From assembly GCF_021134715.1 (NCBI RefSeq), contig NC_060023.1, positions 7,936,001-8,000,000 of the forward strand: 64,000 bases of DNA, read 5' to 3'. The position numbers and the translations under genes are program-made. This DNA is from Daphnia pulex (Eukaryota > Arthropoda > Branchiopoda > Diplostraca > Daphniidae). This document shows positions 5,071 to 36,638 of the stretch, in pieces. Every line of letters begins with the position of its first letter. The stretch's first letter is position 1. The notes under the pieces are model-generated. The model saw only the letters and a program-made list of their open reading frames with translations. It did no database searches and was not told where the DNA came from.

Positions 5071-5523
5071 AAAAAAAAATTATGCGTTGTGTCATTCACA
5101 CGAATACAAAACCTTGTGAAATTTTTAAAAGTTTATTATTACTTCCATTCATAAGTTTCATTACACTTCTTGTTGGATTTTTGTGTCCAACTTTTAATAT
5201 TTCAATATATGGATACATATAGCAATAACTAATAAATAGATTTCACAAATGAATCAAATCAACAAATAGAATTAAATAATGGGTGCTTTATAACTTTATA
5301 AAATGTTCAGCCAGATCTACCAGATCACTTCCCACTCTACTGCACTCATTGCTGAATTTGGGGTAAGCGAAATAAGCTCGTGTGTGGGCAAAATGTAAGT
5401 TCAGAATAAAGAACTTGTCAATGTTGTGTGAATATTTTTAAAACATTACTGATAAAACGAATGATAAAGATTATTTTTTTATGTGCAGCAGAAATGAATT
5501 TAATTTAATTTGTCTTGGTTGAA
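5071..5523. other. Convergent 3' untranslated region between helicase and giant gene
   Basis: The 453-base gap separates the two stop codons. AATAAA signals for the plus strand occur near 5229 and 5405. The reverse complement of AATAAA occurs near 5132 for the minus strand. The two 3' UTRs may therefore overlap. No coding frame is seen. Confidence 0.5.
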
Positions 5524-8500
5524 TTAAGCCCGGACTGGATCGAAGAGAAAACGACGGAAGAGCATGTTGGGAACGCGTCGTGGCTCTTTGATGGACAGGG
5601 CTTTCTCAGTTGCATTCTTCCTTCTTGCAGCACGAAGCCACTGTGGAACGTTGTTGGGTTTCCTAGAAACAATTTCCTTCATTGCCCCCGCATCTACGTC
5701 TCCACGCTTGTCTGCATTCCGTTGGAAAGAGACGCGATTAATTGAACAGAGAATTGGGCCCCATTGACATTTCGGAGGTGGTGACACGGACGTTGTTGTA
5801 GGGCGTGTTTCGGGTTGTGTTGTTCCTTGTGTTGTTGGTTCCGTTGGTGCTGATTCCTCGATTTCCTCATCGGATTTCTTGAAATTCTTGATTTTGAACA
5901 TAAGTCGATCAAAAAGCCATTCGTTATCCAAGTGACTCGAATCCGGTATGACATTCTTTAACTTTGAAATGAAATCGGAGTTTTTCACTATAACTCGCAG
6001 TTTATCTTCGACATCTGGAGTTATATATTTCTGGGCGAATTCCGGAAGATTGTCTTTTGCGGCTGTCAGGAGGCGAAGCATTAACAATCTTAGGTTTCCA
6101 GTTTCGGTATAGTCAATTGTATCATCGGTCAGATATTTATCCAGATGCTTATAGTCTACTTGAGCGAATTTCTCCGGAATCAAATGGATCAACACACTAG
6201 GTATCGACAACTCTTTCCAATTTTGCAAGGTTTCAAGTTGCTCCGGAAACATTTTTGCAACATATTTGGTAAGAACCATTCTTTCTTCGCTGCTAGATGG
6301 ATTAAATTCTTCGGGAAACATTTGCGATAGGATTTTGGCGATCAACCAAGGATGGTCCAGCGTACGATCTTCATAGAGATCGTTGAAAAGAGCAAGGAGC
6401 AAGTCACCACCGCCATCAATAGATCTACCGAAAGGGGTTCCAATGAACAGCACGGAAAGAAGTAGCAGGAAAGGCGAAGCGATTATAAGTGCTGCAATGC
6501 CTAAAACTGGAAAAGCGTTCCAAATAGGAACTAAGGCCCCCCAAGGTGAGGATGGTCCGCTACTGATTGACGAATCCCCTGATGATGACGAACTTTGAGA
6601 TGATCCGGATGATGAAGAAGATACCGACGGTACGAAAATAGTATTGATTGGCGGGGGCGGGGGCACGGGTACGATTAGATCAGTGAAAACGGTGATAACT
6701 TCAATACTCGGTAGTAAAGGCGTTGTCAAGTAACTTTCAGTGGTGGTTTCCTGAAAGGTGGTTGAGAAGGTTGTACTTTGTTGCACATCCGAGATCGGCG
6801 TAGTAAAAACGGCTGACATCATAGTAGTTGGTAGTTTTGTCGGTGCTTCTGTCAGCTCTTCCGTCGGCACTTCTGTTGGTGCATTAGTCAATGGTAGTTC
6901 AGAAGTGGGTTTCACTGTTATCTTTTCAGTTGTAGTAGTTTCTACAATGGGTGCTTCGGTGACATACTCCGTTGTTACTTGTTCTGTAGTAGTCATCTTC
7001 TCTGTAGTTGGGCCCGGAGTAGTGGTAATAATTTCAGTTGTTTGCTCAGTAGTCATGGCCTCAGTGGTTGCTTGTTCAGTAGTCATGGCTTCAGTGGTTA
7101 CCTGTTCAGTAATCATAGCTTCCGTAGTTGCCTTTTCAGTAGTCACGGCTTCAATTGTTTGTTCAGTAGTCATGGCTTCAGTCGTTTCTTGTTCATCAGT
7201 CATGGCTTCAGTTGTTGCCTTTTCAGTAGTTACGGCTTCAGTTGTTGTTTGTTCAGTAGTCATGGCTTCAGTGGTTAGTTGCTCAGTAATGAGGGCTTCC
7301 GTGGTTGTTTGTTCAGAAGTCATGGCTTCTGTGGTTGTTTGTTCAGTAGTCATGGCCTCAGTGGTTGCTTGTTCCGTAGTCATGGCCTCAGTGGTTGCTT
7401 TTTCAGTAGTCACGGCTTCAGTTGTTGTTTGTTCAGTAGTAACGGCTTCAGTGGTTGCTTGTTCAGTAGTCATGACTTCCGTGGTTGTTTGTTCAGTAGT
7501 CATGGCCTCAGTGGTTGCTTGTTCAGTAGTCACGGCTTTCGTTGTTGTTTGTTCAGTAGTCACGGCTTCAGTGGTTGCTTGTTCAGTAGTCATGACTTCC
7601 GTGGTTGTTTGTTCAGTAGTCATGGCCTCAGTGGTTGCTTGTTCAGTAGTCACGGCTTTCGTTGTTGTTTGTTCAGTAGTCGCGGCTTCAGTGGTTACTT
7701 GTTCAGTAGTGATGACTTCCGTGGTTGTTTGTTCAGTAGTCACGGCTTCAGTGGTTACTTGTTCAGTAGTCATGACTTCCGTGGTTGTTTGTTCAGTAGA
7801 CATGGCCTCAGTGGTTGCTTGTTCAGTAGTCACGGCTTCAGTAGTCATAGCTTCTGTGGTTGTTTGTTCAGAAGTCACGGCTTCTGTGGTTGCTTGTTCA
7901 GTAGTCATGACTTCCGTGGTTGTTTGTTCAGTAGTCATGGCCTCGGTGGTTGCTTGTTCAGTAGTCACGGCTTCAGAAGTCATAGCTTTTGTTGTTGTTT
8001 GTTCAGTAGTCACGGCTTCTGTCGTTGCGTGTTCAGTAGTCATGACTTCCGTGGTTGTTCGTTCAGTAGTCATGACCTCATTGGTTGCTTGTTCAGTAGT
8101 CATGGCTTCAGTGGTTGCTTGTTCAGTAGTCATGGCCTCAGTGGTTATCTGTTCAGTAGTCATGGCCTCAGTGATTACTTGTTCAGTAGTCATTGCTTCA
8201 GTGGTTGTTGGTTCAGTAGTCATTGCTTCAGTGGTTGTTGGTTCAGTAGTCACTGCTTCAGTGATTCCTTGTTCAGTAGTCATGGCTTCAGTGGTTACTT
8301 GTTCAGTCATTAGGGCTACTGAAGTTGCTTTTTCAGTAGTTACGGCTTCAGTAGTTTGTTCAGTAGTAATAGCTTCAGTGGTTTCTTGTTCAGGAGTCAC
8401 AGCTTCAGTGGATATTTGTTCAGTCACCAGGGCTTCTGTAGTTGCTTTTTCAGTAGTCACGGCTTCAGTAGTTGTTTGTTCAGTAGTCATAGCTTCAGTG

Positions 8501-11500
8501 GTTTCTTGTTGAGGAGTCACAGCTTCAGTGGATATTTGTTCAATCATCAGGGCTTCGGTGGTTGCCTTTTCAGTAGTCACGGCTTCAGTTGTCGTTTGTT
8601 CAGTATTCATGGCTTCAGTGGTTTCTTGTTCAGCAGCCATGGCTTCGGTTGTTGTCTTTTCAGTAGTCACGGCTTCAGTTGTCGTTTGTTCAGTAGTCAT
8701 GGCTTCAGTGGTTTCTTGTTCAGCAGCCATGGCTTCAGTTGTTGCTATTTCCGAAGTCACGGTTTCAGTTGTCGTTTCTTCAGTATTTATGGCTTCAGTG
8801 ATGTCTTGTCCAGTAGTTATGGCTTCAGTAGTTTGCTGTTCAGTAATCAGGGCTTCTGTGGTTGTTCGTTCAGTGGTCATGGATTCCGTAGTTGCCTTTT
8901 CAGTAGTCACGAATTCAGTTGTTGTTTTTTCAGTGGTCATCATGGCTTTAGTAGTTGTTTGTTCTGTAGTCATAGCTTCAGTAGTCATGCTGACACTTAT
9001 CTGTTCGGTAACTGAAACCTCTGTAGGTTGAACAGTTGCGCTTTCTTCTTCTTCCATACATTCCAAGGTCGCTGTCTCATCCTCACTGTCTTCCGTACTG
9101 TCCGTTACGTCAAAATTGGATTCAATCAGCCCAAATGCATCAGTTATTTCTTCAGTGGTGCTTTCAAATGATGACATTGTAGATGTCTGTACTACATCTT
9201 CTAGTGTAGTGAATACGGTTGGTGTGGTTGATTCCGATGTATTGGCTGTTGTGAAATCTGGAGAAGTCGACAAACTAGCAGTTGTAGAAGTAGTTTCCGC
9301 TGTGTCCGTTACTTCTGCCTCTGTTATGGTAGTTGAATCGCAATCAGTATTTCCAGTCGTTGGTTCTGTCACTGTCACTGCCAACTCGGTGGTAAATTCG
9401 TCTTCGGTATCATCTATAAACAACACAAGACAAGACACAAAACTTAAAACCGCTGAAAAATTTAAATGTTGTGAAAATAGTTCCGTCCAAATTGCCACGC
9501 GTAACGCGAAATGTATTAATTATTTTGAATTATACAGACCTACCTTTAAATATTATTTTTAAAACATTAATGATTTTAAACTTACCGCATGGTTCTGATG
9601 TACTCGTTTCTTCTATGGACGTTACTTCTGTAACCACAACTTCATTCGATACAACCAAGGTTGTACCTTAAATATATGAAAAAAATAAATAAATAAAAAC
9701 ATTGTAAATGATTCTTAATAAAATCAACAAACTGTAAACATTTAAATTAATTCAAGATTGGCGAAAATATACTTTGCGGTGTAGTAAAATTAACAGTGGA
9801 AGGAAGAGTGCTATGCGTAGTTGTAGAACTCTGGGATGTTGTTACAGCTTCTGTTGGTTCGGTAGTGATAGCAGTTGTAGAAAAGGGCGAAGAAACATCG
9901 GTAGATGAAGTTATCACAGTTGCAGCATCAGTCGTGGAAGTGAAATGAGGAGATTCAGTTGAAGTAATGAAAATATTTGCAGTTGTTGTGCCAAGAGAAG
10001 TTTCTTCACTCGTAACATCAGAGATCAACTGGTCTGGAGCAGTAGTTTCAGACGTTACAGAAGTTTGGGAAGTAGTTATCGAACTATCGGTCGAAAGGGG
10101 ACCTGAAGAAGGTGATTGTTCATCGTGTTCTTCGGTCGTAGCTAAACTCGATGACTCAGTAGATTCCGAGGTCGATTCTAGTGTGACAGAATAAATAGTA
10201 TCAAACATTGAGGAAGACACTGCATTATGGACATACGAAATTATGTAAAAGGACAGATAAGAAGAAGTTGTATCGTCTGATATGTTATGTAGTCGTCGTG
10301 AATAAAGAAGTACCGTAATCGTTGGTAACCGTAAAAGGTTCAGTCGATAGAGTATCTGCTGATGAAGGTGAAGTCGTAGTCGATGGTTGAGTGAGCATGG
10401 GAGTAGTGCTTATAAATATGTCTATGGGAGTGGTGGTTGAGAAGAAAGGTTCAGATGCCGACGCAAACCCTGAGCCCATTGTTGTTACAGAAGTTGAAGT
10501 AAAATCAGAGAATGTTGATTCAGTTAACACTTCAGGTAATAAAGAAGTCGAATAAGTTAAGTCGGTTGTAAACGTGGTTTCCGTGGTCAGAGATTCTGTG
10601 GAAGAATGTGGAACAGAATGACTTAAAGTAGTTAATGGCAACAAATCAGTAGTAGACACATCAAATGGCTCAGTGGTAAACGAAACAGTAGTAGTGGATA
10701 GCGAGGAAGAAAATAAATCGTCCGATGCTTCAGTGGTTACAAGAATAGAAGACATGTCGGTTTCTGTCACGCTATTATCTGCTGTTGTCTTTGTTTCAGT
10801 TGAATAATCGCTTGGTGCAACAGACGATTCTGTAAATAAGTCTGAGGCGGAAGTCCCACTAGAAGGAGTGGATGTTAACGATTGAGTTGTCGAAGAAGCA
10901 ATTGGTTCGCTACTTTCGAAACCTAATGCAGTGGTAAAAACAACATTTTCCGATGTATGTGGGGAAGATGGAAAATCAGTTTCTAATTCTGGATTTTTAG
11001 TTGTTCCTATGGACGATCCATCAGTAGACGTGGGGTGTTCAGTGGGAGAACTTTCCGAAATGGTAGAAAATGCAGGAAAAGTAGAGTCTGAGTTCACCGC
11101 CGTGGAAGTAAATTCCACAGTTGTATCATAGTTTTCTTGTGTCTCGTAGGTAGATTGGAAAATTGTAGTTGACTGAGGGTTAGAAGTAGAATCACTTGTG
11201 ACAATAGTGGGAACTGTTGTAATAACTGACTCGCTAATTGGAGATTCCGTTAAGGTTTGCGATGTTTCTGAAAATTGCTCGATGGTAGTCGTGGAGAACG
11301 ATTCTGGTGTGGAGTAAGAAAAAGAGCTGGTACTACTTTGCTGCATATCTGTTGTTGACGAATCTTCAGGTGTAGAGGTGCCTGAAATTTCTGATGAAAG
11401 AATTTCAAAATTTGGATCTGTTGTTGAAGAAGGAAGAACTGTTTCATCACTCGATTGAGTAACAACAGTAGTTGGCACAAAAGCTATGTCGCTTGTAAAT

Positions 11501-14500
11501 TCAACTGTAGAAGAAGTGTAATCTTCGTCAAGGGTAACTAAATTGGCATCTGTTGACTGAAAAATAGGGGTCACAGAATCTGAAGTAGACCCAAACATAG
11601 AAGTAGGCGTTGTATTAACAATAGATGTCTCCGCAGTAAACGCGGAAGTCGTAGAACTAAGAATAATTTCAGTCGTATACGTTGTAGCTATGTCACTGTC
11701 TGATGAAGTCATAGCTTCATCGGTTGTTGGAGAATGTGTAGAAGAAAGCACTTCGGTTGAATCTGTAGAAATTTCCGCTATCGTAGAAGAAGTATAATCG
11801 TCCAATAAAGAAGTAGTAGATTGAAAAAGTTGAGAGGACGAAGTATCAGAAACTAAACCAATCGTCGTATCGCTTGATGTAGAAGATTCGTTAGTGAATG
11901 CTTCAGTATATGTTGTTGAAGTTGGGGAGAGTGTAGATGGCACATCTGTTTCAGTAGTTTGCAATGGAAATGATGTTGGTGTAATGTCTGTTGCGGAAGA
12001 CACTGAAATATTCTCAAAAACTGTAGTTGCTGTAGTTGAATCGACAAAATCATCTGTAGTTTCCATTGCAGATCCCATTGTTGTGATTGCTTGTTGCGCA
12101 TCCGTTTCTGTTGTTAGATCTTGTGATTCGCTGGATTGTGTTTGGGAAACTGGTTCCAATGTGATGGTTGAAAAAATCGTTCCAACTGTGGTAGAAGGAG
12201 CAAAATCACTTGTTTGATAAGAAGGGGTAGTAGAGTGCAACTCAGAAGGAAAATCAGTTAAAATTTCGGTTGTTGATGCAGATAGAGCAAAAGTGGATAA
12301 AGTTGTGGATTCTTCCTGCGAAGTCGATGATTCAGTGAAGAAAACTGTCCCAGAAGTACCTTCCGATGGGATTGAAGAAGTTACAGAATCACTAGTTGGT
12401 TCAGAAGGAAGAACAGTAGTTGTTATACTACTTTCGCTACTATAATCGTTTTCGTCCGTGAAATGTGTTTCTTGAACAGGGGTAGAGGTTTGTTCAAAGG
12501 GAAAAGCGGTAGACGTAATACTACTTTCGCTACTAATATCGTCTGTGAAATTTGTTTCTTCAACTGAAGTTGAGGTTGAAGGCTCAAAACTGAGACTTGT
12601 TGATGCATCCTCAACGGGATTAACGGTTGTAGATGATTGAGAAGATGTTTCAACATTATTAGTAGTGGTAGAATCAATAGAAGATGTTGTGGTCATAACA
12701 GTGGGGGATTGGGTAGAGGACATTGAAATATGTGAATCTGAAGTTTGCAATGGAAATGTTGTTGGTGTAGAGTCTGTTGCAGAAGAGACTGAAATATTCT
12801 CAAAAACTCTAGTTGCTGTAGTCGAATCGACGAAATCTTCTGTTGATTCCATTGTAGATCCCATCGTTGTGGAAGCTTGTTCCGCATCCGTTTCTGTTGT
12901 TAGAACTTGTGATTCGGTAGATTCTGTTTGGGAAACTGGTTCCACTGTGATGGTTGAAGAAATGGTTCCAACTACGGTAGAAGGAGTAGAATCACTTGTT
13001 TGATGAGGAGGTGTAGTAGAATGTAACTCAGAAGTAAAATCAGTTAAAATTTCGGTTGTTGATGCAGATAGAGGAAACGTGGACAAAGTTGTGGTTTCTT
13101 CCTGTGAAGTTGGTGATTCAGTGAAGAAAATTGTCCCGGAAGTCCCCTCCGATGGGATTAAAGAAGTTACAGAATCACTAGCTGGTTCAGAAGGAAGAGC
13201 AGTAGTTGTAATACTACTTTCGCTACTATTATCGTTATCATCCGTGAAATATGTTTCTTGAACAGGGGTAGAGGTTTGTTCAAAGGGAAGAGTGGTAGAC
13301 GTAATACTAATTTCGCTACTAAAATCGCCAGTGAAATTTGTTTCTTCAACTGAAGTTGAGGTTGAAGACTCAAAACTGAGACTTGTTGATGCATCCTCAA
13401 TGGAATTAATGGTTGTGGATGATTGAGAAGATGTTTCAACATTATTAGTAGTGGTAGAATCAATAGAAGATGTTGTGGTCATAACAGTGGAGGATTGGGT
13501 AGAGGACATTGAAATATGTGAATCTGAAGTTTGCAATGGAAATGTTGTTGGTGTAGAGTCTGTTGCAGAAGGGACTGAAATATTCTCAAAAACTGTAGTT
13601 ACTGTAGTCGAATCGAAGAAATCTTCTGTTGATTCCATTGTAGATCCCATCGTTGTGGAAGCTTGTTCCGCATCCGTTTCTGTTGTTAGAACTTGTGATT
13701 CGGTAGATTCTGTTTGGGAAACTGGTTCCACTGTGATGGTTGAAGAAATGGTTCCAACTGTGGTAGAAGGAGTAGAATCACTTGTTTGATGAGGAGGTGT
13801 GGTAGAATGTAACTCAGAAGTAAAATCAGTTAAAATTTCGGTTGTTGATGCAGATAGAGGAAACGTGGACAAAGTTGTGGTTTCTTCCTGTGAAGTTGGT
13901 GATTCAGTGAAGAAAATTGTCCCGGTATTCCCCTCCGATGGGATTGAAGAAGTTACAGAATCACTAGTTGGTTCAGAAGGAAGAACAGTAGTTGTAATAC
14001 TACTTTCGCTACTATTATCGTTATCGTCCGTGAAATGTGTTTCTTGAACAGGGATAGAGGTTTGTTCAAAGGGAAGAGCGGTATACGTAATACTACTTTC
14101 GCTACTAAAATCGTCAGTGAAATTTGTTTCTTCAACTGAAGTTGAGGTTGAAGACTCAAAACTGAGACTTGTTGATGCATCCTCAATGGAATTAACGGTT
14201 GTGGATGATTGAGAAGATGTTTCAACATTATTAGTAGTGGTAGAATCAATAGAAGATGTTGTGGTCATAACAGTGGAGGATTGGGTAGAGGACATTGACA
14301 TATGTGAATCTGAGGTTTGCAATGGAAATGTTGTTGGTGTAGAGTCTGTTGCAGAAGGGACTGAAATATTTTCAAAAACTGTAGTTGCTGTAGTCGAATC
14401 GACGAAATCTTCTGTTGATTCCATTGTAGATCCCATCGTTGTGGAAGCTTGTTCCGCATCCGTTTCTGTTGTTAGAACCTGTGATTCGGTAGATTCTGTT

Positions 14501-17500
14501 TGGGAAACTGGTTCCACTGTGATGGTTGAAGAAATGGTTCCAACTGTGGTAGAAGGGGTAGAATCACTTGTTTGATGAGGAGGAGTAGTAGAATGTAACT
14601 CAGAAGTAAAATCAGTTAAAATTTCGGTTGTTGATGCAGAGAGAGGAAACGTGGACAAAGTTGTGGTTTCTTCCTGTGAAGTTGGTGATTCAGTGAAGAA
14701 AATTGTCCCGGAAGTCCCCTCCGATGGGATTGAAGAAGTTACAGAATCACTAGTTTGTTCAGAAGGAAGAAAAGTAGTTGTAATACTACTTTCGCTACTA
14801 TTATCGTTATCGTCCGTGAAATGTGTTTCTTGAACAGGGGTAGAGGTTTGTTCAAAGGGAAGAGCGGTAGACGTAATACTACTTTCGCTACTAAAATCGT
14901 CAGTGAAATTTGTTTCTTCAACTGAAGTTGAGGTTGAAGACGCAAAACTGAGACTTGTTGATGCATCCTCAATGGAATTAACGGTTGTTGATGATTGAGA
15001 AGATGATTCAACATTATTAGAAGTGGTAGAATCAATAGAAGTTATTGTGGTCATAACAGTGGAGGATTGGGTAGAGGACATTGAAATATGTGAATCTGAA
15101 TCCAATAAGTCAATGGGTTTTTCTGTTACAATTTGAAAATCTGTGTCTTCGGATTGATCTGTCGTTGAAGTTTCAATTTCAGTTGTACCGTTATCAGAAT
15201 CTGGAGTGGTCACGGAATGATCAGCAGTCGATTGTGCTTGTGATACACTTGTTAGAAACTCTGGTGAATCTGTCGTGGCTACAACTGATATTAAACCATC
15301 TGTGTTTTCAGTCGAATAAAAAAATTCGGATGTGGTAGTAACATAATGAGATGTGTCTAATTCGGTTGGAGATGTGGTTTCTGGCCTTTGTGTTGACGAA
15401 GCAGGGAATGTGGAAAACTCTTCAGGTAAACCGGATGTGCTAGTAGTTTCCATTGTATATTCAATATTTACAGAACTAGTACTTTCAATTGAAGTTGGAG
15501 ATGTTTCAATTGTAGAAGTAAACTGAGTCGATTCTGGTCGTCCTGTTGTTGATTCACTAATTGATGAAGTTTCAGTTATAGGTATCTGTGTCGTTGAATG
15601 TTCTGTAGGTTGCACTGAAACTAAGAGAGTGGTAGAGCCATCAGTTGTCGAAGTTAATTCAGAATCGCCTGTAACTTGGATGCCAGGAGTGGATATCTCC
15701 GACGTAAGATCAACTGGAATTTCGGTTGTGGGAAAGGTAGAAGGTATTAAAGAAATAGAGTCTGTGTCAATACCAATATCTACAGTTGTGGGTGCAGAAT
15801 GTGATTCGGTAGTCTCTGAATTGGAAAAATCTTCTGGCTCCAGCGTGGTTGAAGAAATCGAACCAAATGGGGTAGGAGGAGCAGAATCACTATTCTGATG
15901 AGAATGTGTTGTAGAAGGCCACTCAGAAGTAAAATCACTAAACATTTCGGTTGTCAATCCAGTTAGAGAAAAAGTGGACGAAGATATGGTTTCGCCAGTG
16001 GATGATTCAGTGAAGAAAGTCATCCCGGAAGTTCCGCTTGATGCGGTTGTAGAAGTTAGAGAATCATTAGTTGGTTCAGAAGGAAGAACGGCAGGCGTAA
16101 TGCTACTTTCGCTACTATTATCGTTACTATCTGTGTAATTTGTTTCTTCAACAGAAGTATACGTTGACGTAGACGTTGATTCAACATTGTTAGTAGTTGT
16201 AGAATCAGTGGAAATGTCTGTGGTCATAATAGTTGAAGATGGGGTCGAGGCAAAAACTGTCGAGGTAAAAACTACACTTGTGGGCACAGAATGCGACTCT
16301 GTAGTCTCTGAAGGTGGAATGGAAAAAGAAGCTGAAGACTCTGATTCAATTTCTAAAGTAGTTCCATACGTCTGTTCTACTGTAGATAATGTTGGTAAGT
16401 TAAAATAATTCGTAGTGGTAAGTATATCAGAACTGGAGGTTTGTGATTCTGGTTTTGTCGTGGAGCTATCGATACCATCAGATGTCGAGTAGTATAATTC
16501 AGTTATTTGCTCTCCAGGAGTCTGTTGTGGCGTTGATGACATTGATACAGTTGTTTCTGGTACCCCACTCTCCGTTTGGGCTGGAGTAGACAACAGTATC
16601 GTTTCCGGACCAACAGAGACTATTGTTGTTGAAAATGAATCACTGTTACCGCTATTAAATTCAGTACTTAGTAAAGAGTCTGATAGTGATGTGGATGCAA
16701 TCGTGGAATACGAAGACGAAGTCTGGCCTGATGTTGAAGGAAAAGGTTCAACTGTAGGGAAGATTTCACTTTCACTGCTTGTTTGTGAAACTAGAGAAGG
16801 TGTAGATTGGTTAATATCAGACATGAAAGTAGTAACTAGTCCGTTCCCTTCGGTAGAAAATTGAGGAAATGACGAAAAATCAGGATGCTCAGTGGAAGAA
16901 ACCATTTCTTCGTTATTAATTTGAGAAAATGTTATAGAAGTAGAGCTAGGAGAATTAGTAGTAGTAAAGTAAGTTGAAATTATTACATCGTTCGAAGTAC
17001 TATCTGTCACGGAGGACACAGTGGACGATAGAGCGGAAACAGTATTACTAGGGAAGAGTGTTGATAGACCTGGAAGAGATATTCCCATTTGTTCACTTAA
17101 AGTGGACAGAACAGACTGAATAGTTGACGGAGAATCAGTTTCTGTTTCCACATTTCCTGGGTCAGTGGGGACAGTAGTAGAAGACACAATATTATGAACA
17201 ACAGTTTGGGAAGTTAAAGGGTCGTTTGTCTGACTTGTAACCGTAGATGAGGAATCATTCACTGAAGATTCACCAAAATTGTTGACATGCTCACCAGTTG
17301 CTTCGCTATTTGGAAAATGTGAAGTTGTGTCCTCGGTTGACGTTGTAATTGTTTCTGTTTGTTCTGTTGGCAGAATAGTGTTTGTTTGAGTTTCAGGTGG
17401 TAAAGTCGAAAATGTCGATTGAGTTTCCGGATCATTTGAGATGGGAAAAGTTGAAAATAACCCACCGTCAGTTGCTACATTAGATTCTGATCCAGTTGTT

Positions 17501-23500: not shown

Positions 23501-26500
23501 CTACTGCTTCCCAATTGATCAGTGGTACTTGTTGTTGTGACCTGAGTTTCTTCAGATTGTGTTTGAGCAACTGTTGAGATTTGTTCTGTTTCGACTGTTG
23601 TCGATTCGGTGTTCTCTGCACTAGAGGAAGGTGGCCAAATAGTAGTAAAGGCAGCAACAGTGCTTTGAACTGACGACAAAAAGGTGGAAAAAGTGGTCGT
23701 TTCACGTTGAGTTGTTTGATCAAATGGCTCTGATGACGTAGTCGTTACTTCTGTAAACGTCGAAGAGCTAACAATTTCTTCCAATTTCGATGGCGTTGTT
23801 GACTCTGTTGTTGTAGCTACATTGGAAATATTTTCTTCCACTGTGACAGCCGGAGGAATTGGTATATTTGTGGAGTCAGTAACGAACGTTTCGTTCATAG
23901 TTGTTTCCGTAACTGTAGGATCAGTTTCAAAATTTTGTTGCTGAGATGTTGTTTCAGAAACAAACTGAGTTGATGCTAAAGTTGACGAGGAAATAGCTGT
24001 AGTTGGCGACCAATCTTGCTCACTAGTAGAGCTTCCCATAGAATCACTTTCTACATTTTGTTGCTGAGTAGATGTTTCAGTCAACGACGAAATAGTTGAA
24101 ACTGAGGTCGACGACGGTGCAAATGTTGTTATTATGGACAAATTCTGCTCGATAGCTGTGTTTCCCTGATCTAAAGTGACATCACTCGCGGCGGATGTAG
24201 TAATACCGTTCTGTGCTCCTTCTGTTTGAACCGAGGATTCTTCAGTGATAACTTCAACAGCAGGAAATTTCGTGGAAGTCAGCTGTTCAAACTGTGTGAC
24301 TTGTCCATCTGTACCTGAAGACACCAAAATAGTCGTAAGATCACTTGAAGTTGTTGTTTCTGGATTGAAGAAGTGATCAACAGGGGTCGACGATGTTTGA
24401 TCCTCAGTCAACGAAACGACTGTTGTCCCAATGCTTGCGTCAGTATTAGTTAATGTAGAAGGGCTACTGTTAATTTCCAATTGATTTGCGCTACTTATTG
24501 TTGACGTAAACTGAGATTCTCCAGTTTGCGTTTGAGAAATTATAGATATATCTTCCGTTTCCCCGATTGTTGACTCAGTGTTCTCTGCACTAGACGACGA
24601 TGGCCAAATAGTCGTAAAAGAAAAAGTGCTTTGAATTGAGGATAATATGTTAGACAATGTAGTCGCTTCACTTTGGCTGGTCCCCTCAGGTATCTCTGAC
24701 GTAGAAGAAGGTTCCAGCGTAGACACTGAAGCGCCAGTACTGACTAAAATCTCAGATTGCGTCGTAGACTCTGTAGCGATCGGCTCTTCCACCGTGGTTG
24801 ATACAATCGAAATACTCGCGGCCTCAGTAACGAACGATTCATTCAAAGTTGTTTCTGTATCTAGAGAGTCAGTTTGAATATTTTCGTGATGAGTCGTCGT
24901 TTCAGAAAAAAACTGGGTTGAAAATAAAGTCGACGCTGGAATCGTTGTCGTTGACGATAAATCTTGTTCTATATTCGAGGTTTCCGTGGAATCAGTTTCT
25001 AAATTTGGTTGCTGGGTAGTGGTTTCAGTAAAAGACAAAGTATTTAGAACTAAATCTGTCGACGGCTCTGTTGTCGATGGCAAATCTTGCTTGGCTGTAG
25101 AGCTTCCCTCATTGGTGGTATCAATTGCGAAAGATGTAGTAACACCACTCTCAGCTACTTCTGTTTGAACTGAAAATATTTCAGTTATAACTTCAAGTGA
25201 AGGTGATTCCGTAGAACTAAACTGATCAAAATGTGTGGTCTGTCCGATACTACTTGAAGACACTAAATTCGTCGTCTGTTGAGTTTCAGTTGCTGTTCCT
25301 TGACTGGAAGTGGCAAAACTTTCTGAATCGGTGTTTGCTGTAATAGTTTCCGTTTGCGCTGAGAAGTTACTCAATGTTGTTGTTACATCGGTCAGCGCTG
25401 ATGACACCCCATCAGTAGTAAAGGATAACGTACTCGGAGTTGATGCCAATGTTGGCATATCGTTAATTTCGGTAGTTTCAACTGAGTCAGAATTTTGATC
25501 ACTCACTTGCGTGGAAGCACCTGGTATAGAAGTTGTATGTTGAGACTGCATTGTAGATTCAGTCACAAATGTCGTCGGCACCGAAGTCGAGGAACTGGAA
25601 GTTGTCGAAACAATTTGTTCAATAGTAGACGTTCCCTGATTTATCAAGACAGTGGGTGTAATTGTTGTGATTTCCTCTAATCCCGTTGAAGTCTGTAGTT
25701 TCTCAGTGGTAACTTGCGGGACTTCAGTATTACTCGGCTGTTCTTCGGTTTCTGTAGTTCCTTGTTCAACAGTGGTAGTGTCAGGTGCGAAATTAGTTGA
25801 ATGTTCAAATTCTGTGCTTGGTTGAGTTGCGATGGAGTTTGTTTCTTGATTAGAAGATTCACTTGTCGTTGTCGGATTAGTGAATTGTGTAGAGCTTATC
25901 GAAACAGGGAATTCTTCTGTAGTAGAAGATTCGCTAGCAATCGTTGAGCCAATAGAAGATTGAGATTCCGTAACAACCGAAAGATCCTGTTGTGTTTCTG
26001 TTGGACGAGGTATTGGAGTAGTTTCTTGGTCATTTGTAACATTCATCGAATTAGGCGGTTGAGTAGATGCTATGAATGTGCTAGACGTAGTAGAAACAAA
26101 ATCTAAATCAAATCCGGGAACTAAATCCGGGCCAGTCACGGAAGAATCATTTTGGGTTAAAGCGGAACTAATAAATGTTGTCATGTTCAGAGATTCTTCC
26201 GTTTGGGTTTCTGAAGAAAATGAATGGTTACTGCTCTCAACCAATGTCGACTCAGTGTTCTGTACATCACTAGATGACGTCCAACCAGTAGTAAAGGATA
26301 TCGTACTTTGAATTGACGATAAAATACTTGACAACGTAGTCAATTCGCTTTCGACAGTCATCTCAGTTGGTTTTGTTGATTGATCATTCTGTTGTGTGAA
26401 TATGCCACCGATAGTTGAATTGGTGTCACTTTCAAACGTTACCAGAGATTCAGTGACTGTCTGTTTATTCTCCGTTGTTGTTCTTTCGGTAGTGGTACTA

Positions 26501-29500
26501 TCATCAAAAGTTCCTTCTTCAGTTGTTGGTCTAACTGTTGATTGGCCTGACTCATTGGTAGCCAGCGATTCATTGACAGTAGTTTCAGGAGAGTCAGTTG
26601 TGACGATTTCTTGCTGCGTGCTTGAAAGTGTTTCAAGCACAGATGTCACTGTTGACACTGCGTTTGTTGTCGGGCTAAATGTGGTATGGGATTCTTGGTC
26701 GATCGTTGAGCTCCCTAGGGATGTATTAAAATTGTTTACCATTGTTGTAGTAAAATTGGTCAGTTCTGTTTGGATTTCGGGCGTTTGACTCGTTACTTCA
26801 ATATTGGTTTGAGTGACCTGTAATTCGAACTGTGTGGTATGCTGCCCAGAAATGGACGTTTCAGTTTCGGTAAGAGTTGTTTCTTCACTCTCAGATGTAG
26901 ATTCTTGTGTGAGAGAGGTGCTTGATTGGTCTTCTATGGGTTTTCCCTCATTCACATTAATTGTCGTTGTAAGAACGTTCGGTGTTGAAGTTTCTACATT
27001 TTCTTGAGTAGTGATTTCAGCCAATGGTGGACTACTGGATAATGTCGGTTTGTCCGAAGGGGAAACTGTTGACTCGTTTTGTAGAGTAGAGTCACTCGTT
27101 TCAGGAGTAGTAAAAATGTCATTGCTGGCAGATGAACTCGGATTGGTAGAAGTAACTTGTTCTCCATGCATAGCAGTAACAATATCATCTGTGATGGGGT
27201 TTGTGTCTGATCCGCTTGTTACAGTGACTGGGGAAATAGTTGAAGACGTTCCAAAAGCGTCTGTCATCGCGGTAGATAAGGTCTGGGTGGTTTGAATTTC
27301 ACCCGTTGTATGTTCTTGTCCGATTGAAGACGTTACAACTACAGATTCGGTTGTTCTTTCAGTGTTAGCAGGTTCTTGCGTAGAGACGGTGCTTAAAAGA
27401 CCCTGAGCCAATGATGAAGCTGTTTCAGTCTGAATGTTTTGTTCCAATGCTGAACTTGCATCGTCTTCCTCCGTGAAGATTGGATTAGAAACGGATGTTG
27501 ATAATTCACTCACTAAATCCGTTACAGAGGTACTCTGTGTTGCCTCAGTGACTGCATCGGATGTAACTAAATCAGGTAATGTACTTTCTGTTAGAGAAAC
27601 TGTAGACGAAAATGTAGTGGTAGAACTATTTTCACCCGACAACGAACTGCCAGCTTCGTTGGAAGAAGTTAAGGGAAAGAAAACAACTGTTGTGGAACCA
27701 AACGTTATGGTGCCCTCAGTGGATAAGACAATTGTGGTTTCATTGATTGGACTGGCAGTAATAATTGTGGAACTGCTTCCCAATTGATTTTCGCTATTCG
27801 TGATAGTTGTGTGAGATTCCCCAGATTGCGTTTCAGCAACTAATGAGATCTCCTCCGTTTCAGACAGTGTCGACTCGGTATTCTCTATACTTGAAGGCGT
27901 TGGCCAAATAGTAGTAAAGGCAAAGGTGCTTTGAACTGACGACAAAATGCTGGACAATGTAGTCTTTTCGTTTTGAGTTGTCGACGGCTCTGATGTAGGA
28001 AAGGTTTCTTGCGTAGATGTTGAAACGCTAGCACTTGCTTCAACTTCAGACTGCGTTGTAGACTCTGTGACGATCACCTCTTTCTCTGTAGATGTTGTCA
28101 GAGTCGGAATACTTTCCTCTACTGTGAAAGAAGTTGGTGTCGGGGCACTTACAGCAGTAGTAACAAACGATTCGTTAATAGTTGTTTCGGTACCTATAGA
28201 ATCAGTTTCTGTATTTTCTTGCTGAGATGTTGTTTCAGAAGAAAACTGGGTTGATACTGGAGTCGACGAGGGATTTGTTGTTGTGGTAGTTGACGATAGG
28301 TCCTGTTCGGAAGTGGTACTTCCTACATCGCTTTCTACAACTGTTTGCTGAGTAGTTGTTTCAGGCAAAGACGAGGTAGTTGAAACTGAATTTGTCGACG
28401 GTGCAATCGTTGAAATTGATGACAAATCCTGCTCGACTGTAAAGCTTCCCTGACTTAATGTGGTATCGCTTGCAGCGAATGTTGTAACACTACTCTCAGC
28501 TACTTCCGTTTGAACCGAAGAGACTTCAGTGATAACTTCCAATGCAGGACTTTCTGTAGAATTTAGCTGTTCAAATTGTGGGGTCTGTCCGACAGTACTC
28601 GAAAGCACCGAATTAGTAGTCTGAGTAGTTTCAGTAGTTGTTTCTTGACTGAAAGTGCTAGATGGACTAACCGTCTGTGCTGTTGTTTCTTGATCATTTG
28701 GGAAACCCGCAATTGTATCTTGATTACCAATCGTCGTCGGACTACTTGATGGAGTGACACTGAATAAAACGGTCGATTCTTTGTTAGCTGTTGTTTCCTC
28801 CGTCACATGAGACTGACTCTGTATAGTTGTACTAGAAGAAGATTGAGATACAGTTGAAGGCATCTGTTCTTCAATAGTAGTACTTAAATCTTGGCTGGCT
28901 GTCTCACTGACTGAAGTGATAGTTGTTGATGGTGTTGTTAACATAGCTAAATCAACATCCGAACTTGTTGTGAAGTCTGTAAGATTGCCTGTTTGAGTTG
29001 CGCTAGAAGAAGTACGCAATGTAGTACTGAATGGAGTTTCTTCAGTTTGACTTTGAACAGTTGTTTCAACCTGGTCGGTTCCGGTTGACTCTGTAGTCTG
29101 CACTAATGCCGACGTAGTCAAGTCGTTTGTGAAGGAGAACATATCGTCTCGCGTCGTCTCGCTTCCACCAGACGTTTCGTCATTTACCGATGAAGTAGAA
29201 GCACTAAAACTGATGGTAGTCGTGAAGTCCTCCGTCTGTGAGGACAATTCAGTGACAGGCTCCTGTATATCCGTAGTTGTTTTCACTGTAGTTGTTCTTT
29301 CGGTAGACATGACAGCTGAAGTACTAGAAGTTAAACTACCTATGGTACTTGAAAACTCGTCGGGGACTCCCGTGAATTGCGCTTGATTCTGGGTGGTTTC
29401 AAAATCCGAAGAATCGGTTGCACTATTTTCTGATTGGGAAGTTGTCGACACCAGGGTGGTTGAAGGTCTAAAAGTTGTTGTCGCCGACGAAGCTTGCTCT

Positions 29501-32500
29501 GTTAGTTCCGTTATTGATTCATTAGTGATATTTTCTACTGATACTACCGAAGGTGTTGTTATTTGTTCATTTTGTGTAGTTTCGTCTCTTGTCGTAGAAG
29601 TAGTGTCCCCGAAGATGACCGTTTCTTTACTTTCTGTTGTTGTTTCTTGATTGAAAGTACTAGACTGGCTAAATATCGACGTTGTTTCTTGCCCATTTGG
29701 ATTATTTGTGGTATCGACCACAGTTGTATCTTGACTTGGGAATCCGATAACTGTTGTCGGATTGATGGATGGGGTGGAACTGGAAGAAATAGTCGATTCA
29801 TTGGTTGTACCTTCTGTAGTAGCTGGTTCACTTGATGCATCACCGAGTGTAGTGCTAGTGACGGACTGGGATTCAGTCACCAGCATCGCATTTTCCTGAA
29901 AGGAAGTAGTTTCTTGGCCTACGGTTACATTGGTGGAATTAGTAGGTGATGCTGATGGTGAGGAAGGTGTAGCAACAACATCTGTTTCAAATTCTGAATT
30001 AGTAGTCAGCGCTGGAGTTGTAAATAATTCAGTTTGCATTTCAATGGTTGTTGAACTACTCAGTTCCGTCACGGCTTGTGATTGCGCTGGACCATTAGTA
30101 GAAATCTCTTCGGTTTCCGTAAATGCGGTCTCGGTAGTCTGTACAATAGGTGTTGACGTAACATCGTTAATAAACGTAAGCGTGCTCTGAATCGACGACA
30201 AAATGTTCGACAGAGTAGTCGTTTCGCTTTGACCATTTGTCTGAGATGTTTGTGTTGTTTTATCAGCGTCTTGAGTGGAACTAGAAGAACCGGTACTTAA
30301 ATCTTCCGGTTGGGTCACCAATCCAATCTCCAGCATTTGTTTCTCAGTTGTCGTTTCGTCAACTGTTAAGTCTGAACTGAACGTTGTACTCGCTGTACTG
30401 GATTCCACCGTGCTGCCAGTAACCTGTGATTGGTTCAGAGTTTCTTCCGTACCTACAGGATCGGTTATTAGATTTTCGTGCTGAGTAAATGTTATTTCCG
30501 GCGAAGACGTTGTCGATTCAAGAGTAGTAGAAGGTCTTGACGTCGACGTCGTTTCCCGCTCAGAATTCAAACTTTCTTCAGTTATCGCAACAGTATCGAC
30601 CATGGTTGTAGAACCGGGCTCCGTCAGCTCCGTTGCAATCGTTATTGTGGTTTTGTCAACGGAATTTTGTGTAACAACAGCATCTGCAGTAGATGGCCCT
30701 GCAGTAGTCACAGCGTTTGGTTCTGTCGTTGTCTCGTCGGTAACAGATTGAATCATGTTAACCAACGTCGTACCGGAAACATCCGCAAAAGCAAGAGTTT
30801 CTGTTACGGATGGACTCGCGGATGTCAAGTTGTCATTGGTAAAAGTGCTCATTGTCGATGAATTCGTTTCGTCTGCGCTTCCACTTTGCTCGCTTGTGAT
30901 CGAATCTGTAAGTGTGACGATTTCGGTTTGACTAGTTATCGTCGACGCAAATCCCGATGATCCTTCTGTTGTTGATTCGTTATTGCCTAACACACTCTGA
31001 CTATCTACTGAAACAGTTGAAATCCCTTCCGTAGCCGACGATGGCTGTGGAGTGGTTTCCGTCGACTGAACAGACGATGTTTCTTGACTAGCTAAAGTTG
31101 TTGACGACGACACTGATATACTGGGCGTATCACTTGTCTCTGTCAACGAAGAGAAGGTAGTCAATTCGTCGGGTGTAACAGTCATTGGCACCGACGGGCC
31201 AGTGGTCGTAGAGCTCAACAAGAGTTCGCCATTAATAGACGAACTATTATCGAGCCCTTCAGTCATAGTCATTGTATCTTGGTTAGTGGTCGGGTTGTTA
31301 TCGAGCGGTGCAGTTGTAGAGACAGTGAGTAAAGAGGTGGTATCAATAGGATTAGTGGTAGAGAAAACGTGTGTGGGCGACGCGTCTGTCGGGTTAGTTT
31401 CGTCGGCAGGCGACGAGGAAACATCTGTTGTAGAAGAGACCAAGAATGTCGTGAAAGTGTGGGAAGAATCCGTCGGAGCGTCCGTCGTCTGAGTCAATCC
31501 GATCGGATCCAAGTGCTGGATGGTACCTTGAATTGTTGAAGTGGCGAGAGGAGTGGTCGTCGCTTCTGTCGAGAGGCTAGTCGCTTCCGTCACCGTCGTC
31601 TCTTGCTGAGTGCTAATGGGTTGAGGAGTCGTCGTAGTCTCAACTTGGCTAGTGCTCAATGAAGAGGCTTCAAATCCCTCTGTCGTTCCTACAGTCCCTA
31701 TTATACGTCACGTTCATAGTATAAATCCATCGTGAAATGTATTCGACTTACCCATGCAGTTCACCAACTATGTACATAGCGTATACAGGCCCATAACCAC
31801 ATAGCGAACCATTGCCCTTATTGCCTTAAACTACTTGTATTGTGATTTTGTGATCACAAGATCCTAAAAAATTTTTCGGTTGAACGAATGGATCGGTTCT
31901 ATTATTAATGGCATCAACATTAAAAGAGGACGCTCTGATTTCGTAAGCTGTTAATCGATGGACCACATATTATGTTTACGAGAAAACAGAAACGACTGGG
32001 CCTCATCCAGTAGATTTTTTCTATGTGAAAGCATGGGTATCGGGGGAATCGTAAAATAAAAGCGGGGGATCGTGTCTATACAGTATTGGCTTCGTTTCGC
32101 TAATAGTAGGCTATCATGCCATCAGCTGTTGCGATGATGCGCGCTTGCTGCGCTGCCCCTGGAAATCAGGCCGTGCGAAATAGGCGCCAGCACGTTACAT
32201 GAATGCGTGACCGAATCAAATTTACAATAAAGGGATGGAATAACCGACCGACTGACGCGTCGTAGCTATATAACGGAAACAAATAGCGCCAGGAAGTATG
32301 TATAGATAGCTCTGATTATATAAGAACTGATTTCTATAAACTTCAGACTATGCAAACAAAATAGTGATTCGATGCTTGAAATGATAGTCAAGTTTGTCGG
32401 AAAACTAGCTGGAAAAAAAGTTTCTTCATGCTTGTAAAAAAAAACTAATTTAAATGGTAATGCATGCTCGATGAAATTGTCCCCAGTATTTGACTAAAGG

Positions 32501-35500
32501 ATCAACACTATAGATAGGCAGTTGACTTTCTTTACCTTCTGAAATGGTGGAGAATCCTGAGTCATCCAGAAATGAAATAAGAAACGGAGGAGAACTATCA
32601 AGGGTGAACGAAGGGGCGGTTCCGAAATCCGAATCCAAGAACTCCACGCTCAATTCTGGTTCTGTTGTCGACGTCGCTAAAGAATCATCCGGGAAGTTGG
32701 GAGCTGGTGCTATGACGAGCGGGGTATTGTCTTCATTTGAGAGACTGAGAAGTTCTTCCAACAGGGCCGAGGTGTCGATTTCTGGCGTGGCCGATAGGTC
32801 CGTTTGGAAAGACGGCGAATCAGTCGGTGATGCATCGCGGGTCAAATTGGCCTTCAGAGAAGCCTGAAATTTGCTTTTGATGACGGCCAAAGGTTCCTGT
32901 TGGTTAAGAGGCGATACTAAGCTGTAAGACGGCGACTCCTCTTCAGGCTTCCAAGCGTGGAACGCAGCCGATGTCGGATCCTTAATGGGTAGCTCGTTAA
33001 AGATTGGGCGCCGTCCAGGATACTCCAGCTGGCCAGGTGATGCTGGAAGTATGGGTTGCTGAATGCTCGTCTTGTTCCTCAACCTGCTACTGTTGATAAT
33101 GATCCTCTTCTTGAACTTCAAATTGTTTTTGAGTTGCTCAAGGCGTTCGGACAAGCCCATGCGCTCCATCAGCTCGCTCGAATCTTCCCACTCTTCCGGG
33201 CTTTGGATGCAGCGAGCTTCAAGGATGCCGTCATCACGGATCGAACAGGACGCAATCTGTCCATCTGGCATTATCTGGTTCGACGGCAGGGGTGTGCAGC
33301 ACATGCTGAAACACTCCCAGCTAACCAGGCAAGAAGCACCGATGGACAGTTTCTCGTCATGTTGATTCTTGCTGCTCTGTTGGCTCACCCTCAGTGCTGA
33401 CGCAAAACTCTAAAATAAAAAAATTCAATTAATAAAATTCGAGTATTCAATATATAGGCCATCCACAAATAGGAGATTCCCCGTATATTGACCAACAGAA
33501 TCATCCTTTCCGTCCGTTTATTAGCCTATCATCTGGACTGCTTCTATCATTGCCGTTCAAGGCGTTTGCTAGTTCAATAGATTTTAAGTTATATCATAAC
33601 TTCTATTATATCCTATGTGCCAGGCTAGACTCTGTGGTATACGTTCTGTTTCAATTATGGTCTATTCTAAGAAGACAAAAAAAAAACATGCTCGGGAATA
33701 AGGCAGCATATAACGGTGTGAGAAGAACGGCAGACGGCGCCTGGCTCACCGTTTTCCTTTATTCCCAGCAGTCAATAAATATGTATAGTCCCAATAAAAG
33801 CAAGCAGTTGACCCACTGAAGGAAGAATAATCTGCCGTTTACAAACAACAACTATACAACCAGTTAGTGCGTTAAATCACCTGCGAGTGTGAAGCTTCAC
33901 AGGTAATTGAAAATAAAAATACCATTTTTTTCCTTATTCTGGTCGTGCGTTAAACGAAAAACTACCGTTAGTACGGCTACATCAAATGCCTTGTGATATA
34001 ATCAAGAAAATGTTCTTTTTACTAATATTATAAAAATGAAGTGACGCAGTAAAATGCCTATGATACATTGCATCCTATATAGCCTACATTGCAAACAGCA
34101 GGATCGATAGACACCTTCTAATATGTTGAGTCTATACTCCCTATACTCGAGAAGGAAAAATCGGCAGACAGATCGAATGCATACCACTGACTGTTTTCGA
34201 AGAGTATAATATATAGAAGACTGTGAGACATTTTTTATGTGATGCTGTCACCCAGTGTGGGAAAGCAAGAAGAAAAATGGCAAGATGGGAAATGGCTCTT
34301 AGAGGAAAGACATGTGCGCCACATCTTTTCGTCGATCTGATTTACTATTATGAAACGAACATCAGTGAAGCTTTGGCGACGTTCATTAACGGGACCATCA
34401 GCGATCTCGGCCGTGACTTTCTCAAATCCCAAGAATAAGAAACAACACGACAACGCCATTTCGATCCGGTCAGTTGCGTTGGACGAGGTAGGTACTACCA
34501 AATTGATGCTGGGCACGGGTCGCTATTGTAATGAAATTTCTCGTAGAAACTCTTCGTTTCTTCCCTGGAAGTTGCTGGTCTTCACAAAGCTCCCGACAAA
34601 CCTGTGGGAGGTCCCACCGCAAGTCCAATGCCCATCACATGCAACACGCTGTAAGGCCGAATTTTGTAGCGATGGTCAATATGGAGTGCGCGCTCAACAC
34701 CATGGCGACGGCCTGTTGAATTCCGACACCGTTATACATTGCCAAGCGATTATACAAGCCATCACGTAGTATATAAAAAGTTAAGAATTCAATCGAGCCT
34801 ATCTGATGCGAAAACCACCTGTGGAAAGCATGGGACGTTTCCTCTTCCTTCATCCTTGTTATGGGTGCAGTATGTAAACTGAATTTTTATTCTTCTGACG
34901 TCCTCAAAAAAGTCTATAAACTTTTCGTTGCAGCAACAGTTCATTTTTTTTTGTTTAATTTTGCCTTCAACTTTAATTCGCCAACATACTGACGGTTATA
35001 ACGTGTTGACACAATCACCCCAATTTTAATTCCAGGAGTTGAATAACATGCCCTTAGTTCGAAACCATCTCATCACACTAGCTATATGTTGTAATTCAAA
35101 CTTTTGCCTCCTTTTCTGTTTTGTTCTGAATGGAGTAATATATTGCCCGGTAGCGATATGATAGCCGCATTTTCTTTCTTGTATTTCTTCGTTCCCTTTT
35201 CGAACATAATGAAGGTTTTCTTCTTCTTTTTTCATTTTTTTAATTTTCACCTTCATTTCACCCGGTTCTCGTGCAACAGTTGTCGGCAAGTCCCTCGATT
35301 GGGTTATATACTGTATACTTGTCAATTGGGGTCTACACCAGTAGTGTATAATATCTGCTAATACAATTCAATGGAATGCTCAAACACAAATCGATTGTTC
35401 GACTCATATTCGCCCAATTGTCTATAAGATATTGGGCACCGAAAACAATTTCCAATTTAATTTCTCACACGGTTGGTGGTTTATATGCTGCGAGAGGAAC

Positions 35501-36638
35501 AACACGAAAAGTGGCCGCTTTGACGCGGGTGGGCGGCCAAAGGGAAAGAAAAAAAAATAATAATTTTAATTAGACCCGTTTAGTGAAAAATCCGTCGCTT
35601 GCGGAAGAGTTGGTGTGAAATGGTCAGCAACATTTCAGACTAATAATATAACAATTTAGCCGAAGGAGCTCCTTCAGTTCCGAGCGAGTGCGCTGCTGCA
35701 CAAGGCAGATGCTGCGTATGTATTATAGCAGTGTAGCCCCTATTACAGTACTTTGGCCCATCTACCACGTATATAATAACAGGCTGCTGGGACGCTCATG
35801 TCCTCACGCCGCAATGCGGTTTATCAACTTGCGACGAGGATGTACGGGAGAGTTACTACACACGAGATAAGCTAAGGCGAGGCGTGTCCACTAACGGTCG
35901 TCTGTCACCAAAAATTATGGAAAAAGACAAAAGCTTCACCAAAGGTAATGAGAAGTGAAAATATAACGACGACCAAAAATCTATGCAAAGCCACACGGCG
36001 ATAAATAAATGCGAGATTTACTATGAATTCAGCAGACTCATTGAAACCCCAAAAAGAAGCCGAAGGGCAGACAACGCTCGATTTTCCCACGTTATATCGG
36101 GGCAACCCGGGCAAACCAAACGGAAGACATTTTTAGGGGAAATCCCTCGATGTAACGAATCAAATATTATGTATGTATTCAGACAAAAATGAAACGGTAT
36201 CAGAAAACTATAGCACACGTCATTTTTTTTCTTCTTAGTATTTCTTTCAACTTCGCGGTCACCAAATAAGTATACAGCTAAGCTAACTATATTCGAACCC
36301 CACTGTTTTTTTCTTCTGCGCTACAGGGTACATTCTGTGAGGCCAGTGTGTACAGCGAACAAGTGAACCATGGCAAAGAAATAATAAAAATGACAAGACC
36401 CAATTTTTTTCTCAGCCCTCACGTCGGGACGGAAGTGCTTGATTGAGTATTTGACGGTGCGTGCTGCCATTGATTCGAGTTAGAGATTTATAGAACTTAT
36501 AAAGCAACCCCCAAAACACAATGAAGGTCTATACGTTCTTATTCTATATATGAAAGGAAATAATAAATAATAATACAAGATGACTTCAATGTTTCTTACC
36601 GTCAAGAGAAGGAGACTGACGATTGCCGGGGCACGCAT
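5524..36638 (-). CDS. Giant mucin-like, Ser/Thr-rich secreted or membrane protein, predicted 8,901 aa
   Basis: Six exons in minus-strand order: 36638-36600, 33409-32536, 31688-10314, 10219-9773, 9666-9586, 9413-5524. All junctions are GT-AG, every phase agrees, and the sum (26,706 nt) is 8,902 codons with the stop. Exon 1 encodes MRAPAIVSLLLLT; exon 2 continues SFASA, completing a signal peptide with likely cleavage after about residue 18. An in-frame TAA lies just upstream of the ATG. Next comes a six-Cys segment (about 41-84), then thousands of Ser/Thr/Glu-rich residues likely to be O-glycosylated. A hydrophobic helix (about 8573-8597) and a roughly 300-residue tail follow. It is probably a surface or extracellular-matrix mucin; no named orthologue is recognised. 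The exon 2 to exon 3 junction is the least certain link: without it exon 2 reads on to a stop at 32450-32452 (332 aa). Confidence 0.78.
6441..6513 (-). other. Predicted transmembrane helix of the giant protein
   Basis: About 24 uncharged residues (FPVLGIAALIIASP, then FLLLLSVLFIG) sit after a Pro- and Ser-rich stretch. They are followed by an Arg and a helical, charged region. With the N-terminal signal peptide this predicts a type I protein with its tail inside the cell. The tail, however, ends with a short Thr/Pro-rich mucin-like piece and two Cys, which would be unusual in the cytosol. A buried hydrophobic helix of a secreted domain is therefore an alternative. Confidence 0.6.
6995..8995 (-). 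repeat. 30-bp coding minisatellite (10-residue TTEAMTTEQT-type repeats)
   Basis: About 66 units of 30 bp lie inside the last exon of the giant gene, encoding variants of (A-[MV]-TTEQ-[AT]-TTE). Two units fit exactly in each 60-base line, so the register is visible over long stretches. Higher-order copies of 120 bp occur, for example 7471-7590 and 7591-7710. The units lack stop codons in several frames on the opposite strand, which produces long spurious antisense frames. Residues affected are about 7745-8412. Confidence 0.92.
11950..15100 (-). repeat. Four tandem 786-bp coding repeats (262 residues each)
   Basis: Equivalent points recur at 12,732, 13,518 and 14,304, and the matching antisense features end at 12,677, 13,463, 14,249 and 15,035; the spacing is exactly 786. 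Each unit begins SDSHISMSSTQSSTVMTTT and ends near TPTTFPLQ. By eye the units differ at a few percent of bases. A more diverged relative precedes them in the protein (about 15,850-16,240). The multiple-of-three length keeps the frame open. Confidence 0.9.
22700..30230 (-). repeat. Degenerate long modules with an LSSIQSTFSFTTIWP-type motif
   Basis: Six clear copies of a hydrophobic motif of the form TTLSxILSSxQSTxxFTT, followed by a Ser-rich stretch and ESTxxETExIS, occur near 22,750, 23,670, 24,635, 26,315, 27,940 and 30,195. Spacing is about 0.92-0.97 kb between neighbours, or roughly double where a copy is lost. The intervening text (TTQQQNxETDS, TxNESFVT and similar) is also repeated. This suggests an old tandem array of about 310-residue modules. 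Confidence 0.75.
31689..32535 (-). other. Intron 2 of the giant gene
   Basis: The donor reads AAG|GTAAAG at 32536/32535 and the acceptor ends CTGTAG at 31689. Both sides are phase 1 and join GAAG to GAACGACAG (Gly-Thr-Thr). If the intron is retained, translation stops at 32450-32452. The intron holds no other coding signal. Confidence 0.65.
33410..36599 (-). other. Intron 1 of the giant gene, 3.19 kb
   Basis: The donor ACG|GTAAGA follows the signal-peptide exon and the acceptor ends TATTTTAG before SFASALRV. The phase is 0 on both sides. Small open frames inside, for example 34235-34853 on the minus strand, do not resemble known proteins. The tract at 34,220-34,770 is less AT-rich than its surroundings and could hold a gene remnant that I cannot identify. 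Confidence 0.65.

Follow-up and report, generated by a model that had tools for sequence, protein, structure and literature searches.

One predicted gene of Daphnia pulex for a giant, probably membrane-anchored mucin of about 8,900 residues

Introduction

Mucin-like proteins of Drosophila span 300-23,000 residues according to extracts of PMC2515642, which also put the length of one of them, Muc14A, close to that of human MUC16. The scheme given there for mucins calls for PTS (proline, threonine, serine) repeats with proline that take up over a third of the length. In Daphnia magna, glycosylated proteins of the gut, which is lined with cuticle, have been proposed as attachment sites of parasite spores (extracts of PMC9894429), and an uncharacterized protein annotated as mucin-5AC, APZ42_021089, was lowered by copper (extracts of PMC11331620). 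Here we describe a predicted gene on the minus strand of a 64,000-nucleotide stretch of the Daphnia pulex genome (NC_060023.1, positions 7,936,001 to 8,000,000; C7:7936001-8000000 in our numbering; hereafter the window), whose product would be a giant mucin of a size that is not unprecedented, since the Drosophila proteins reach 23,000 residues. No literature on this gene was present among the matches listed, nor any for WGPILC, a piece of its C-terminal motif, or for a giant arthropod mucin, and the word 'mucin' is absent from the main text of a D. pulex KAP4 expression paper (PMC13322756).

As judged from the sequence, we consider it likely that a single gene encodes a membrane-anchored giant mucin of the secretory pathway, about 8,900 residues long, which would belong to the surface coat of an epithelium.

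Results

Six exons with GT-AG junctions were joined on the minus strand (positions are those of the window). Exon 1 (36638-36600) carries the ATG and the putative signal-peptide core MRAPAIVSLLLLT and is followed by intron 1 of 3,190 bp (33410..36599). Exon 2 (33409-32536) holds the end of the putative signal peptide and an N-terminal conserved region with nine relatives, and intron 2 of 847 bp (31689..32535) comes next, with a possible alternative acceptor at 31697. Exon 3 (31688-10314) is a giant exon of 21,375 nt for the Thr/Ser-rich mucin region, exons 4 (10219-9773) and 5 (9666-9586) comprise 447 and 81 nt, respectively, and exon 6 (9413-5524) contains the end of the mucin region, the hydrophobic segment, the C-terminal region and the stop. 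A candidate polyadenylation signal, AATAAA, lies on the same strand at 5132..5137, with further ATTAAA at 5509 and 5198 and AATAAA at 4669. GT and AG were present at the expected bases of all five junctions, and the joined exons are predicted to yield 26,706 nt, that is 8,901 codons and a stop, without internal stops. An earlier note on this DNA had claimed that the junction phases agree and that the total is divisible by three and closes with a stop, and joining the six exons bore this out. Its statements about the start held as well: an in-frame stop was found six codons upstream of 36638, and MRAPAIVSLLLLT followed by SFASA makes a start that by hydropathy resembles a signal peptide.

Exon 3 sits in an uninterrupted frame of 7,140 codons, and the longest frame in 200 first-order Markov resamples of the same stretch was 244 codons at most and 154 on average. 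With a codon table trained on exon 3, exons 3-6 scored positive in the proposed frame, with a Ser+Thr content of 33-51% (51% in exon 4), and the other two frames of these exons, like all five introns, scored below zero. The score of exon 3 itself is circular, because the table was trained on it. Exons 1 and 2 lack a mucin-like composition and scored below zero in this table; for exon 2 the proposed frame was the best of three, and for exon 1 it was not (-0.85 vs -0.80).

Agreement of phases alone is weak evidence, because junction 2 admits 222 in-frame GT-AG pairs and junction 3 admits 29; as proof of the gene model it was rejected, since so many alternative pairs exist. By splice score alone, taken from a generic matrix and not one fitted to this species, the proposed pairs came 7th at junction 2 and 4th at junction 3. 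A search that combined codon and splice scores over the region of about 10620-9250, and required exons of at least 15 nt, returned junctions 3-5 as proposed as the optimum, 4.9 bits ahead of the next solution, in which the acceptor of junction 3 was shifted to 10177. An earlier dynamic programme for exons 2-6, trained on mucin codons and with no minimum exon length, returned donor 32536, acceptor 31697, 10314/10219 and 9773/9666; it arrived at 9413 by way of a spurious 2-base exon and fragmented the ends outside the mucin region into small exons. The donor of exon 1 was within the top 0.4% of minus-strand GTs. Within 14.5 kb upstream, 21 candidate leader exons run from an ATG to a GT with a donor score of 4 or more; of these, exon 1 was the most hydrophobic and had the second-best donor, the better one belonging to a single-codon exon. 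A leader candidate equal to or better than exon 1 arose in 4 of 300 Markov resamples.

The predicted product would have a mass of 943 kDa before glycosylation. Serine and threonine make up 41% of it overall and 43% of residues 305-8450, which exceeds the 25% mucin threshold of PMC2515642, and 73 N-glycosylation sequons are present. Of the 12 cysteines, six fall within residues 40-80, another two are residues 8821 and 8828, and four are scattered, with none between residues 81 and 4415. The body contains an array of about 65 copies of a 30-bp unit (7037..8982, minus strand), which encodes TTEAMTTEQT-like decapeptides with almost no proline, four tandem copies of a 262-residue repeat (11932..15126, minus strand; residues about 5826-6889), and looser recurring phrases. 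Copies 1-3 of the longer repeat are 93-95% identical to each other and 81-82% identical to copy 4 at the protein level, and the reading frame is intact across all four. The nonsynonymous over synonymous values (dN/dS) were 0.024/0.042, 0.035/0.042 and 0.031/0.010 for the three closest pairs and gave ratios of 0.5-0.7 against copy 4, with the six pairs overall ranging from 0.54 to 3.0. These values would be compatible with a relaxed constraint on sequence, with composition outweighing it. On the plus strand, a frame of 585 codons (6755-8512) runs antisense to the 30-bp array and is probably a by-product of its stop-free unit.

Conservation was found at both ends of the protein. The N-terminal region has its nine relatives at 44-98% identity and includes a six-cysteine segment (residues 40-80; 33209..33331, minus strand) of the form C-x5-C-x3-CC-x16-C-x11-C; P0020 and P0021, the two of the nine that start early enough, keep the residues directly after the signal peptide. 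For the C-terminal region eight relatives were found, which are 44-97% identical to it. Alignment of these with the window revealed the motif KCxWGPILCSxNRVxFQR (residues 8820-8837; 5719..5772, minus strand), in which 15 of 18 columns are invariant in all nine sequences, including two cysteines six residues apart (C-x6-C); an allatostatin-C-like reading of this spacing was considered and dropped. Upstream of the motif lies a hydrophobic stretch of residues about 8563-8600 (6430..6543, minus strand), a putative membrane anchor. The 19-residue hydropathy of the product exceeds 1.5 over 8563-8604 and reaches its maximum of 2.8 near residue 8578, with values up to 1.7 at the N terminus. P0009, which alone among the eight relatives spans this stretch, has a similar one.

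Protein searches of the animal's own genome (133.2 Mb in 13 contigs; GC content 40%) with both ends returned the gene itself only, plus three C-terminal matches at E 1.8-3.0, and a degenerate DNA pattern for KCxWGPILC occurred there once; the gene is apparently single-copy. Pfam scans covered exons 2, 3, 4 and 6. No family reached E<=1 in exon 2 or in residues 8584-8901, and none reached E<=0.1 in exon 3, scanned as two pieces, or in exon 6; exon 4 had nothing above the cut-off and one domain of unknown function below threshold. SEA, EGF and chitin-binding Peritrophin-A domains were not matched in these exons. Profile searches of the PDB gave three unconvincing matches for the N-terminal region (E 0.19-0.79) and no match for the C-terminal region, for which searches of phage records and of contigs from viruses and prokaryote genomes likewise gave no match.

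The junction search, the conservation of the exon-2 donor, and the hydropathy of exon 1 and of the C-terminal end argue for what the earlier note had described as a giant secreted or membrane mucin with nested repeats. One giant mucin gene with a signal peptide is supported as the best reading of the six exons; a split would yield mucin pieces that have no leader. A number of observations, here and in the paragraphs on topology and on the exon-2 relatives below, tell against a single membrane-anchored mucin. Proline accounts for only 4.8% of residues 305-8450, and among 469 word-sharing candidates of about 4,800-15,300 residues no full-length giant relative was found at E<=1. Donors 10314 and 9773 rank only within the top 9% and 16% of GTs. 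The acceptor of junction 2 is weak, and 31697, which lies three codons upstream of 31688 and in frame, scored 55.6 vs 52.7 (2.9 bits). The one gene put forward in the earlier note stands, and because this acceptor outscores the proposed one and would give 8,904 residues, the exact count of 8,901 is provisional.

It is quite possible, at somewhat short of an even chance, that the minor exons vary within one gene, with exon 4, exon 5 or both skipped in some transcripts, or with acceptors 31697 and 10177 in use. The lengths of exons 3, 4 and 5 are all multiples of three with phase-1 junctions on either side, therefore skipping exons 4 and 5 would preserve the frame; 31697 has the better score at its junction, and at junction 3 10177 is the runner-up. 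On the other hand, exons 4 and 5 score strongly as coding in the proposed frame, and the junction set of the earlier note led the local search by 4.9 bits. Such variation is compatible with the single membrane-anchored mucin, and it differs only from the exact model of the earlier note.

The topology of the C-terminal end is ambiguous between a single span and a hairpin. The hydrophobic stretch covers about 35 residues and has Ser-Pro at its centre, and a third segment, residues 8504-8523, also exceeds a hydropathy of 1.5 (1.6), nearly the level of the N terminus. AlphaFold models had a mean predicted local distance difference test score (pLDDT) of 41 and 45, too poor to interpret. The linker ahead of the motif contains at least 10 Ser/Thr per 38 residues in 7 of the 9 sequences, and an N-glycosylation sequon lies downstream of the motif in 7 of 9. 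Ser/Thr linkers, N-glycosylation sequons and paired cysteines, such as the two invariant ones here, are more usual outside the cell. These features would suit a mucin that is secreted, or whose C-terminal region is extracellular, with the hydrophobic stretch forming a hairpin or no stable single anchor. We regard this as rather doubtful, since a signal peptide and one hydrophobic segment are most simply read as a type I membrane protein, and the tail past the motif is basic (16 Lys+Arg vs 7 Asp+Glu in 62 residues).

The exon-2 relatives bear on junction 2. A glycine-lysine pair (SEGK, EEGK or GGK) stands at the proposed G|GTAAR donor, with the frame open up to it, in seven of the nine relatives; the donor is not seen in P0020 and P0021. 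Six of the seven diverge from the window past it. When identity to the window was compared between the 40 columns before the donor and all aligned columns after it, we obtained 29/38 and 6/20 for P0013, 22/35 and 6/20 for P0016, 22/35 and 2/3 for P0015, 10/38 and 4/26 for P0017, 14/34 and 2/18 for P0018, 10/31 and 1/5 for P0019, and 38/38 and 26/27 for P0014. The last is near-identical on both sides and hence uninformative, P0013 and P0016 count as one observation because their tails are alike (22/25), and P0017-P0019 have already diverged in the 40 columns ahead of the donor. The drop in identity at the donor is clear in some relatives only, and the donor codons persist amid changing surroundings. 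Two or more genes, with exons 1-2 coding for a small secreted product and exon 3 onward belonging to a mucin gene of its own, would agree with the weak acceptor and with an exon-2 frame that continues 27 codons beyond the donor codon before a stop (an extension also open in P0014), but we consider them unlikely, given that six of the seven donor-reaching relatives diverge after the donor and end at different lengths, that AATAAA or ATTAAA is absent between 32450 and 31700, and that exon 3 is without a hydrophobic leader, its first Met being residue 444, 139 residues in.

Other features of the window were also noted. Beyond the mucin gene on its 3ʹ side, and in the opposite orientation, lies a DEAD-box helicase exon (3353-3928, plus strand, E 2.4e-24), and a BTB/POZ domain protein is encoded by a single open frame at 57053-58012 (plus strand, E 2.2e-22). 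Two tandem cuticle protein genes with APAYA-type repeats (47385-48105 and 51660-52437, plus strand; Pfam Chitin_bind_4, E 3e-11 each) alternate with near-identical Ala/Pro/Tyr-rich frames with a hydrophobic start (44817-45359 and 48855-49400, minus strand; no Pfam match at E<=0.01), which suggests the duplication of a block of some 4 kb. Rfam indicated five transfer RNA (tRNA) genes on the minus strand (46332-46437, 46668-46765, 50284-50406, 50663-50770 and 50916-51024), whose lengths of 98-123 bp suggest introns; ARAGORN with bacterial settings found no tRNA genes.

Discussion

In the single membrane-anchored mucin that we favour, the repeat body would, judging by its composition, be densely O-glycosylated and stiff, perhaps more than 2 micrometres long, and the C-terminal hydrophobic segment would anchor it in the apical membrane. 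The protein could then coat a gut, gill or epidermal surface or form its apical matrix, and contacts at the two ends of the protein would be made by the six-cysteine segment at the N terminus and the conserved region at the C terminus. The body would need bulk and composition but not an exact sequence, as in other mucins. A bolder proposal, which we put forward as an unlikely one, is that the protein works through its conserved ends, with the mucin body serving as a micrometre-long spacer, and that KCxWGPILCSxNRVxFQR, possibly closed into a disulfide loop, is the binding or signalling module of an undescribed crustacean family of tethered giant mucins.

The gene would provide a well-bounded example of a giant mucin in Daphnia; in D. 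magna, gut glycoproteins are, in the extracts of PMC9894429, proposed sites of spore attachment. Its single coding exon of 21.4 kb is extreme in size. The conserved ends offer handles for tagging, knock-out and ortholog search, and the repeat body gives none.

Transmembrane mucins of the vertebrate MUC16 type likewise have a hydrophobic segment close to the C terminus and a giant body rich in Ser/Thr, although no SEA or EGF domain was matched here, and the likeness is drawn from features. Drosophila Muc14A is similar as a very long, Ser/Thr-rich, repetitive arthropod protein, but it has Cys-rich EGF-like regions (extracts of PMC2515642), whereas no Pfam family was matched in the scanned exons of our gene. 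By the scheme of the same source, the protein might count as 'mucin-related', because the proline content of residues 305-8450 is 4.8% and the decapeptides have almost none. With peritrophin-type mucins, represented in those extracts by nine Drosophila proteins with PerA chitin-binding domains, it shares arthropod mucin repeats but not a matched chitin-binding domain. APZ42_021089 is also a mucin-annotated Daphnia gene (extracts of PMC11331620), likened here by annotation and not by sequence. Giant mucins are thus already known from flies and humans, and the novelty, as far as these searches go, lies in the two conserved ends together with the size of the single exon.

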